IMG/VR virus record: IMGVR_UViG_3300032116_000875
Span: 1-31,550 of that record
Reading direction: 5' to 3' (one strand)
From: a virus
Length of the DNA stretch: 31,550 nt
A program made the translations under genes and the position numbers. Below, piece by piece: positions 12,232-13,845 of this stretch; position 1 is the first letter of the stretch, and the number at the start of each line of letters is the position of its first letter. Below the pieces are notes generated by a model that was not told where the DNA came from, ran no database searches, and saw only the letters and a list, made by a program, of their open reading frames with translations.

Positions 12232-12420
12232 GGGTAATGGGGGGAATTTACGCGAGCCGGGCCGAAAGGAAAACCGATTGGTAAAAGGGGTGGGGGGTCT
12301 GCTTTTGGGACTTTTCGCCAGGATTTTTTGGCTTTTTGGTGGGCGCGGTCGTTATGCGATGAAACCAAGATGGGATGGGCTATAGGCCGCGCTGCCGTTT
12401 GTCATTACGTTTGCTAGGCA
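12232..12420. other. G-rich non-coding patch (plus strand)
   Basis: Plus-strand runs of 6 G at 12238-12244, then GGGG-T-GGGGGG and GGG near 12287-12310, then several GGC/GCG steps, make this stretch much richer in G+C than its surroundings. No ORF of convincing length is present on either strand. Multiple G-tracts could form a quadruplex when single-stranded. It separates the leftward units from the rightward arm. Confidence 0.5.
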
Positions 12421-12474
12421 TGTCTTATAATTTGCATTATGTTAAATAGAATACACTTTGAGACCAACCAAACG

Positions 12475-12525
12475 GCCGCTCAGTTGGCCGACCAACCGCT
12501 CGAAATGCCGCTCAATTTGCCGCAA
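12475..12525 (+). repeat. short CCGCTC direct repeats
   Basis: CCGCTC occurs three times within about 40 bp (near 12475, 12497 and 12508), with GCCGC again at about 12520 and 12579. ACCAACC also occurs twice in the same stretch. The copies are short and unevenly spaced. They could be protein-binding sites in the control region, but nothing else supports that. Confidence 0.3.
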
Positions 12526-12611
12526 AAAAAACGTGGTGATCAGGCACACGGTACGAGGAGGTTGCCCTTTCAAACCATTTGCCGCAATAAATATTTCAGC
12601 AGCACATTGAA

Positions 12612-12655
12612 AACACGTATATCGTAACTGCTTGATTTATAGCAAGTTACGTGTT
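12612..12655. other. hairpin with two competing pairings
   Basis: CGTAAC at 12623-12628 pairs with GTTACG at 12646-12651, extended inside by GCT/AGC with one bulged A. The outer octamer AACACGTA (12612-12619) is complementary to TACGTGTT (12648-12655), which uses part of the same right arm. No T-run follows. It sits about 75 bp upstream of the rightward promoter and could be an operator or an RNA switch in any transcript that crosses it. Confidence 0.4.
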
Positions 12656-12724
12656 AGACGAACGTGTCCTTATTTAGAATGATTATAAATTAGCATGAAA
12701 TGTGAAAATAATTGTAGAAAAGTA

Positions 12725-12754
12725 TTGCACATTTAAAAAGTTGCCGTATATTTG
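12725..12754 (+). promoter_or_regulatory. consensus Bacteroidota promoter for the rightward arm
   Basis: TTG at 12725-12727, a 19-bp spacer, then TATATTTG at 12747-12754. This matches the TTTG/TTG-N19-TAnnTTTG form used by the Bacteroidota primary sigma factor. Transcription would begin about 12758-12762 and enter roughly 560 nt of non-coding sequence before the first rightward start codon at 13320. Confidence 0.7.
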
Positions 12755-12757
12755 TAT

Positions 12758-13319
12758 CAAGCAAACGAGCTGACAATATCACTTCTTACTAGCAAGCCTC
12801 TAGGCGTTACGATGACGAATCAGTATACTAAAGGTGGCCCAAACGATAAAGCATAATCAAGCACCTAAATGTGTAAGCCTTGAGATTGCCGTTCAAAGGT
12901 AGGCCTGCTACACGGCTCTAAGCTAAGTTCATTGACATATTGTGACTATCTAACCTAAGTTAATCTAGGCGTGTAATGCGGTAATTTCCCTCGCTGAAAG
13001 AGGTTCGTTTCCGATGGTATATAAGGCAACCATCTAATCTAGTTAAGGCGCTTAGCGTGCATAGTCACAACCGATACTATTTGAGGCCATAAGCGGTGCT
13101 GAGGCCAATACGATAGCACAAATCTAGGACGAACCTAGGGCGCACAGTACATTACTCGGGTGGCTATGCGTCGCAACCACAAGGCAAATGGTCAAAGCTT
13201 GTAGGGAATAATAGAGGGCATGCAGTTTCACGTGGCATGCAAAGCATTAGGTGCAGTTAGAATGACTAATTAATGAGAGCGATACTCACTGCACCACAAA
13301 CCAATTAAAACAAAACAAC
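12758..13319 (+). ncRNA. candidate long structured RNA or leader
   Basis: About 560 nt downstream of a consensus promoter with no ORF of useful length on either strand. Possible stems: 12857-12883 (TCAAG/CTTGA), 12888-12916 (GCCGT/ACGGC enclosing GTAG/CTAC), a 10-bp perfect long-range pair 12940-12949 with 13061-13070 (TTGTGACTAT/ATAGTCACAA) enclosing hairpins at 12989-13003 and 13013-13034, then 13096-13119, 13124-13138, 13160-13180, 13218-13240. The last is 13250-13295, where GGTGCAG/CTGCACC closes a three-way junction with two small hairpins. It may be an independent RNA or a long 5' UTR; no terminator separates it from the first gene. It matches no RNA family I can name with confidence. 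Confidence 0.45.
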
Positions 13320-13430
13320 ATGGAAACTAGAGTAATTAGAATCGAAGGCCGCTATGAAATCATCGGCTTCTTCCAAGAAGGCGTGTTAGTTAAGACTCGC
13401 AAGTTATTAATCCCTTTTAGATATAGATAG
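13320..13430 (+). CDS. 36-aa first peptide of the rightward operon
   Basis: ATG at 13320 follows an A-rich leader (caattaaaacaaaacaac), the usual initiation context of Bacteroidota. The stop TAG ends one base before the next ATG at 13432. The peptide METRVIRIEGRYEIIGFFQE continues with GVLVKTRKLLIPFRYR: strand-turn-strand with a basic tail. It is too short to classify. Coding is supported by operon fit and initiation context. Confidence 0.5.
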   Translation: METRVIRIEGRYEIIGFFQEGVLVKTRKLLIPFRYR

Positions 13431-13431
13431 T

Positions 13432-13845
13432 ATGAAAGATTGTAAAGTAAACATCTGCGGCTGCAAAGGAGTTGAAGCCCTGGTATATGATTTTTGGAAT
13501 GGCCACGCGATGCCATACATCAAGTTCAAAGACATCCAATTGTTTGCTGATGAGTACACCAACGAGTTTGTTGAAATCACATTCAGCGATGGCGTTCTCA
13601 AGCTGTATGACATGCAAGAAAGTCACACCGAACTAATCTACCCAATAACAATTGAAGGCGAGGTAGTCTACGACCTAGGTCACATTGGCTACTGCTTCGA
13701 GATAGTCGAAGATGCCATCACTGAGTCTATCAGTTACATCGAAGACGACCAAGTTGTGGTCGCTGTTAGAAGCAACCTACCTTTCGAGGGCGCGGAATTC
13801 GATGGAGAAATGTTTGTATTATATAACCAATTTAAATTATCATGA
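13432..13845 (+). CDS. acidic protein, unknown
   Basis: A 137-aa acidic protein. The N-terminus has three close cysteines (CKVNICGCKG). Alternating hydrophobic and charged residues predict a beta-rich fold (MPYIKFKDIQLFADEYTNEF, VEITFSDGVLKLYDM, VVYDLGHIGYCFEIVEDAIT). No motif of a known enzyme is visible. The next gene's ATG overlaps its stop (ATGA). It belongs to the run of small early genes downstream of the candidate RNA. Small acidic early proteins often bind host proteins, but nothing here shows a target. Confidence 0.6.
   Translation: MKDCKVNICGCKGVEALVYDFWNGHAMPYIKFKDIQLFADEYTNEFVEITFSDGVLKLYDMQESHTELIYPITIEGEVVYDLGHIGYCFEIVEDAITESISYIEDDQVVVAVRSNLPFEGAEFDGEMFVLYNQFKLS

Follow-up and report, generated by a model that had tools for sequence, protein, structure and literature searches.

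The window analysed here, a 31.5-kb virus record, comes from an uncultured phage of Bacteroidota type. Its leftward arm carries groEL and further genes, and its rightward arm carries small genes, an exonuclease, a primase, a C5-methyltransferase and a helicase. The nearest named phages are distant, with groEL identities of 47.5% to MW202828 and 38% to the Flavobacterium elemo phages. The RNA region described below is intergenic; it separates the two divergent arms and stands in front of the rightward early genes (Table 1). An earlier note on this DNA had proposed a Bacteroidota-type promoter (TTG-N19) here, followed by a long structured RNA without a useful ORF. The promoter sits at the coordinates that the note gave, and 12627–13352 is free of ORFs of ≥50 amino acids (aa) on both strands. 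Within the body of the RNA, stop-free runs reach at most 47 codons (75 in shuffles). Also between the divergent arms, at 12424–12451 in the window, is a conserved element that is rich in AT (TATAATTTGCATTATGTTAAATAGAA) and has GGTCGG/CCGACC-rich repeats after it. The same element is seen in L039, L034, L041 and L143, and on the opposite strand in L147; it may be an origin or a leftward promoter.

Table 1. Features of the leader region and the first early gene (window coordinates)
Feature	Position	Strand	Remarks
Promoter, Bacteroidota type: TTG (12725–12727), N19, TATATTTG (12747–12754)	12725..12754	+	Layout kept in relatives
5′ hairpin AAGC-AAACGA-GCT at predicted transcript start	12759..12772	+	Near invariant
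Structured module B	12792..12908	+	CM R2, 97.6 bits in the window; 22/23 pairs changed on both sides
boxA-like element GTTCATTGACATATTG	12927..12942	+	Identical to the 16S–23S spacer motif of Sphingobacteriales; the window has no other perfect match
Optional module M, closed by the 10-bp pair 12940–12949/13061–13070	12940..13070	+	In the window, L058 and L096
Module C1, including hairpin 13218–13240; replaced by module C2 in other phages	13071..13247	+	Covarying pairs, all standard
3′ three-way junction, tRNA-like, without anticodon arm	13250..13296	+	CM R1, 89.8 bits; covariation
Early-gene leader CAAACCAATTAAAACAAAACAAC	13297..13319	+	Register as after the hammerheads of relatives, 22–24 nt
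First early gene, 36-aa microprotein METRVIRIEGRYEIIGFFQEGVLVKTRKLLIPFRYR	13320..13430	+	Near the leader in most relatives; no Pfam match

Statistics on the single sequence are weak. The earlier note had suggested folding 12758–13319 against shuffled controls; the folding energy falls within the shuffled range (z = +0.50, with 61 of 100 shuffles as good), and we dropped it as evidence for structure. The note had also rated a perfect 10-bp pair, TTGTGACTAT with ATAGTCACAA, as its strongest evidence. The pair is present as placed, but a pair of this kind arises by chance in ∼10% of shuffled sequences, and it closes an optional module. Because folding energy and the 10-bp pair are weak evidence on their own, relatives were needed. 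With groEL as bait we collected 80 IMG/VR loci, and blastn identified homologous non-coding DNA in more than 40 of them, upstream of groEL and on the other strand. A groEL-independent pattern scan for the 3′ junction added 17 loci. Together these IMG/VR phages yielded 49 distinct readable RNA bodies, with one copy of the RNA per genome. Most of the 49 keep the promoter, the 5′ hairpin and the 3′ three-way junction. Nearly all relatives with a standard 5′ hairpin have the TTG-N19-TAnnTTTG/TTTA promoter layout, and by inspection the stem of this hairpin covaries (AGC/GCT, AGGC/GCCT, GACC/GGTC and GTGAT/ATCAC).

As judged by covariation, the strong evidence is the 3′ junction and the 12792–12908 module, not the 10-bp pair. 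In the junction, 13 of 15 pairs have changed on both sides and 95% of alignment cells are paired, a result reached by 0 of 500 shuffles; the pairing collapses when the partner strand is slid. None of 500 shuffles did as well as module B (22 of 23 pairs changed on both sides). A stricter test, written for this analysis after R-scape, used an APC-corrected G-test with a null in which parsimony changes are replayed on a FastTree tree. This tree-aware test returned 11 significant pairs in five modules: three in the junction, three in module B, two each in C1 and C2, and one in a T-arm module. Of the 11, ten form standard pairs in all sequences, and the remaining one is paired in 22 of 24. Module M beats its shuffles when folded alone (z = −2.6); compared with its distant copy in L096 the outer stem is kept, nine pairs have changed on both sides and nine are broken. 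The proposal of a long structured RNA heading the rightward arm is thus borne out by homologues and covariation. We are nearly certain that 12725–13319 comprises a promoter shared with relatives and a non-coding RNA of ∼540 nt whose structure is conserved here, and transcription of this RNA from the 12725–12754 promoter is very probable.

The family appears in none of the databases that we searched. For Rfam 15 (4227 families, GOLLD, ROOL and OLE included), nothing in the window reached the gathering score and nothing in 12400–13450 matched at E values up to 5, in agreement with the earlier view that the RNA is neither GOLLD nor ROOL. Rfam matches in the leaders of relatives were at chance level. 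One of them, c-di-GMP-I-UAU, scored 22 bits against a cut-off of 65.9 with many broken pairs, and an STnc540 match was likewise judged to be chance; readings by eye as a group I intron or a tmRNA found no Rfam support. GenBank phages and plasmids, searched directly at the DNA level, returned nothing similar. A pattern scan of cellular genomes gave 71 stretches from unrelated taxa; 30 of these, mainly from Bacteroidota with a few from elsewhere, were re-scored with R1, and all stayed at or below 22 bits. Neither the junction nor module B was detected in a distant groEL clade (∼53% identity) or in the GenBank phages MW202828 and elemoC, and the leader RNA is absent from both examined stretches of the nearest named phages. 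No paper describing it was found in a literature search that left out most subscription journals and preprints. These results add a large structured RNA family with strong covariation, absent from Rfam and from GenBank phages.

The ends of the leader are conserved and its interior is variable. Module M, present in the window and L058 and diverged in L096, is cleanly absent in the other relatives, and a single site carries either module C1 or module C2. In 21 distinct relatives, the window not being among them, the junction is preceded by a T-loop hairpin of the tRNA kind (GGTTCGATTCC). L010 and L011 have identical promoters (100%) and 3′ halves that are 94% identical, and 5′ halves that are 32% identical; L017 and L019 are alike in this respect. 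To judge from such comparisons, the pattern is one of recombination of modules between phages. The leaders of L034, L037, L038 and L125 share another swapped module, in which GGTCACTCC...GAGGGTATTARTATCGG...CATAACCAAAGG is conserved.

Most members carry GTTCWTTGACAT in the middle of the leader. The earlier note had missed that this is a host rRNA boxA, which likely changes the function to be assigned to the RNA. The motif was first noticed in the 16S–23S spacers of Pedobacter and Mucilaginibacter. Its 16-mer form, GTTCWTTGACATATTG, occurs in 63 of 81 Sphingobacteriales genomes (0 for a reversed-pattern control), and all 35 of the 35 Sphingobacteriales matches that we fetched lie between 16S and 23S, 37–213 nt before 23S. 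Two other Bacteroidota orders have the 16-mer in 6 of 41 and 7 of 40 sampled genomes, many of which are perhaps metagenome assemblies without rRNA operons. The shorter GTTCWTTGA is found in 33 of the 49 distinct RNAs against 0.125 expected in shuffles. Its absence from the other 16 indicates that boxA is not essential to the leader family, and its presence does not track leader length. The exact 16-mer fits the rRNA spacers of Sphingobacteriales, which is a statement about the motif and not an identification of the phage's host. From its sequence and place we infer that the Bacteroidota spacer motif is a boxA; the Escherichia coli consensus is GYTCTTTAANA (PMC5725501). In rRNA operons boxA lies upstream of both 16S and 23S; where a 5′ UTR is long and non-coding, expression is lost in a Rho-dependent manner, and insertion of a boxA counteracts this loss (PMC4807359). 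By analogy, the phage leader resembles that situation, as it is a long non-coding 5′ UTR carrying boxA. Nus factors have also been proposed to aid rRNA folding. A folding aid of the rRNA type is a second possible use of boxA in a large structured leader. The odds that the leader boxA acts through Nus factors seem to us evenly balanced.

At its 3′ end the RNA closes with the three-way element that the earlier note had described at 13250–13295. A 7-bp stem (13250–13256/13289–13295, GGTGCAG/CTGCACC) surrounds two hairpins, hairpin 1 at 13257–13269 (loop AATGA) and hairpin 2 at 13274–13288 (loop AGCGATA), separated by the linker TTAA, and the purine A13296 follows. We compared 29 junctions, gathered with a descriptor that fixed the stems, the 7-nt loop length and a trailing RCNAAC motif and left the loop sequences free. 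The outer stem is 7 bp long in 26 of the 29. There is no gap between hairpin 2 and the 3′ strand of the outer stem, as there is none between the T-arm and the acceptor stem, and the hairpin 2 loop has 7 nt; both hold in 29/29 and both were set by the descriptor. The loop reads AG-C-R-A-N-A; its C-R-A corresponds in position to C56-R57-A58 of the T-loop, and hairpin 1 keeps a G at the fourth loop position. The resulting loop–loop pair, which in the window would join G13264 to C13280, is G-C in 28 of the 29 and A-U in one; a targeted scan for further exceptions in the junction family found none, and the A-U change rests on one sequence (L458). The pair seems to behave as the G19-C56 elbow pair of tRNA would. 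Hairpin 2 has a stem of 4 bp rather than 5, and its loop lacks the UU of the T-loop. Neither ARAGORN nor Rfam calls the junction a tRNA or tmRNA, and there is no full cloverleaf; the likeness is partial and consists of the 7-bp acceptor stem, the gapless T-like hairpin, the C-R-A loop and the elbow G-C. By this analogy the junction would be a tRNA-like fold without an anticodon arm, with the following purine as its discriminator.

The surroundings of the junction suggest that it marks a boundary. Between the RNA, whose end lies 23 nt upstream of the ATG (13320), and the first gene, the + strand has no terminator-like site. The RNA would therefore begin as the leader of the early operon and become separate only if it is cut. 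The idea of a separate RNA with its own promoter accordingly holds for the promoter, and separateness depends on cleavage. The junction ends 22–24 nt before a start codon in 41 of 51 cases, and the first gene varies between phages despite this fixed distance. The stretch that follows, TAACCAATTAAA...ATG, is a general early-gene leader in the related phages and is not specific to the junction. Hammerhead ribozymes occur in the same setting. We identified 38 distinct copies of one design (GGTTAA-CUGANGA...GAAA...H|UUAACC) in related phages, mostly intergenic and, with one exception, cutting 17–24 nt before an ATG; at least 120 IMG/VR stretches contain the design. Carriers with hammerheads between early genes, their cleavage site ∼22 nt upstream of the next start codon, are L008, L016, L025, L029, L034, L037, L039–L044, L046, L048, L049, L051, L083, L096, L100–L102, L105, L121, L122, L125, L128 and L143. 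Since the Rfam scores of the tested copies are well below the cut-off, standard annotation probably misses them. The window itself has no match to a hammerhead descriptor (CUGANGA and GAAA core with closing helix). Phage hammerheads have been proposed to cut operons into gene-sized mRNAs (Perreault et al. 2011, PMC3088659).

Several relatives end the leader differently. In L044/L045 a hammerhead at the end of module C1 stands in the place of the junction, and in L109 and L145 the junction alone lies between two genes, a place typical of hammerheads; these two arrangements tie the junction to the hammerheads. T-arm-plus-acceptor minihelices end the leader in the same register in L323, L474 and probably L320, and a long hairpin ends it in L049; all of these directly precede YTAACC...ATG. 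The hammerhead swap represents one lineage, and the minihelix swaps are single sequences. Similar tRNA-like elements, with a 7-bp acceptor and a T-arm just before ACTAACCAAAT...ATG, are found at L420:792 (+) and L441:3796 (+), in phages that came from the hammerhead scan. L474 has a second T-arm hairpin (GCGGGTTCGACTCCCGC) at 2413–2429 (−), ∼290 nt after its leader, which is perhaps another tRNA-like boundary between genes. The 3′ junction is, on balance, probably a processing site. The predicted cut falls at 13296/13297, matching the hammerhead cuts in register, and would give a new mRNA 5′ end at 13297. That host tRNA enzymes make this cut is conceivable, and we rate it at somewhat below even odds.

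Downstream of the leader, the first gene or another early one encodes a conserved basic microprotein of 35–36 aa (METRVIRIEGRYEIIGFF...KTRKLLIPFRYR). Its gene is preceded by the junction in 21 cases, by a hammerhead in 11 and by neither in 19. A role like that of antiterminator N is suggested only by the place of the gene and the basic tail of the protein, which has no Pfam match, and we set this idea aside. In L002, L003, L007, L058 and L076 other small genes directly follow the junction and the microprotein gene lies further downstream. The head of the early operon is apparently a hot spot of gene gain.

We favor, at a probability of roughly 0.5, a reading in which the RNA is a long modular 5′ leader of the rightward early operon that bears boxA and is cut at the junction. 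The nascent boxA would bind host NusB-S10 and build an rRNA-type Nus complex on RNA polymerase. This complex would let transcription cross ∼390 further untranslated nucleotides and a long early operon without Rho-dependent termination, and would also secure proper folding of the large RNA. The junction would then be cut at ∼13296/13297; the likeliest enzymes are tRNase Z or RNase P of the host, which would recognize the acceptor stem stacked on the T-arm-like hairpin. Cleavage would free the folded RNA and leave the first early mRNA with a 23-nt 5′ UTR; in one related lineage a hammerhead ribozyme takes the place of the junction. We conjecture more tentatively that the whole is a mock rRNA operon, with a host boxA, a stripped-down tRNA end for which hammerheads are the alternative, and a freed modular RNA with a role in trans; we consider this extended version rather unlikely. 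If the leader reading is right, Bacteroidota phages, whose early control is little known, use host rRNA antitermination together with processing of the tRNA type, and the way in which junction, hammerhead and tRNA-like ends substitute for one another is a natural experiment on making mRNA 5′ ends.

The size of the RNA, its intricate folding and the module swapping typified by L010/L011 would also suit a discrete ornate RNA comparable to GOLLD and ROOL, which would serve in trans as a cage, a scaffold or a decoy and for which co-transcription with the early genes is a mere production route. The swapped modules would then be working parts, such as decoys against host defences. The T-arm-like module of ∼20 relatives and the processing-site appearance of the 3′ boundary agree with such a role, which is also compatible with the boxA part of the leader explanation. 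However, the RNA always heads the same operon at a fixed distance from the start codon, in one copy per genome; GOLLD, ROOL and OLE have no Rfam match here and no particular partner is indicated. We regard a trans-acting RNA as rather improbable. The boundary itself could be cut without host enzymes if the junction were a new class of self-cleaving ribozyme: it is compact, has invariant unpaired bases, is replaced by a hammerhead in L044 and occurs alone between genes. These invariant bases suit a tRNA elbow, however, and the other replacements (tRNA-like minihelices and a plain hairpin) need host enzymes, which makes self-cleavage unlikely.

Position, structure and the short fixed distance to the start codon recall a riboswitch or protein-sensing leader acting on the first early gene at the level of translation or transcription. 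Yet modules are freely swapped while the ends stay, the first gene varies, no expression platform such as a terminator is present, and riboswitch matches are at chance level; we consider such regulation very unlikely. Least probable of all, at a few chances in a hundred at most, is that the structure works as DNA, as an origin, packaging or recombination site. Intergenic regions between divergent arms are a frequent origin location, but a conserved promoter points into this one, the consensus fold is better on the + strand in three modules, and a hammerhead, functional only as RNA, can replace the 3′ end. Predicted pairs also contain 246 G-U cells against 34 A-C cells, a comparison that is partly circular.

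The leader RNA has partial parallels in several known systems. The rRNA boxA/Nus complex (NusB, NusE/S10, NusA, NusG and SuhB) offers the same boxA sequence in a long structured untranslated RNA; here, in contrast, the RNA is a phage early leader, a third of the members lack boxA, and Nus binding is only predicted. Lambda nut and HK022 put likewise lie just downstream of an early promoter, ahead of a long early operon. Lambda nut pairs boxA with boxB and the protein N, whereas the phage leader is ∼540 nt long and modular with an rRNA-type boxA. HK022 put is a ∼70-nt two-hairpin RNA that binds the β′ zinc-binding domain (PMC9378689) and needs no dedicated protein factor; the ∼540-nt leader differs in architecture and does not qualify as a put. 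GOLLD and ROOL are similarly long, elaborate and phage-encoded with links to tRNA, and GOLLD has a variable 5′ and a conserved 3′ part, but the leader heads an early operon rather than lying in tRNA islands, contains boxA, and has a processed-looking 3′ end beside a start codon. The hammerheads of the relatives resemble the phage hammerheads described previously (PMC3088659) in being intergenic, precede start codons by ∼22 nt and can stand in for the junction; the window junction has no CUGANGA or GAAA core. A further parallel can be drawn with a eukaryotic RNA. MALAT1/mascRNA has a tRNA-like fold at the 3′ end of a long RNA that tRNA enzymes could cut; the phage junction differs in lacking an anticodon arm and in its bacterial phage setting, and its enzyme is only predicted. 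In kind the leader lies between antitermination leaders and ornate phage RNAs, and the combination of such an RNA with processing ends that can be interchanged appears new.
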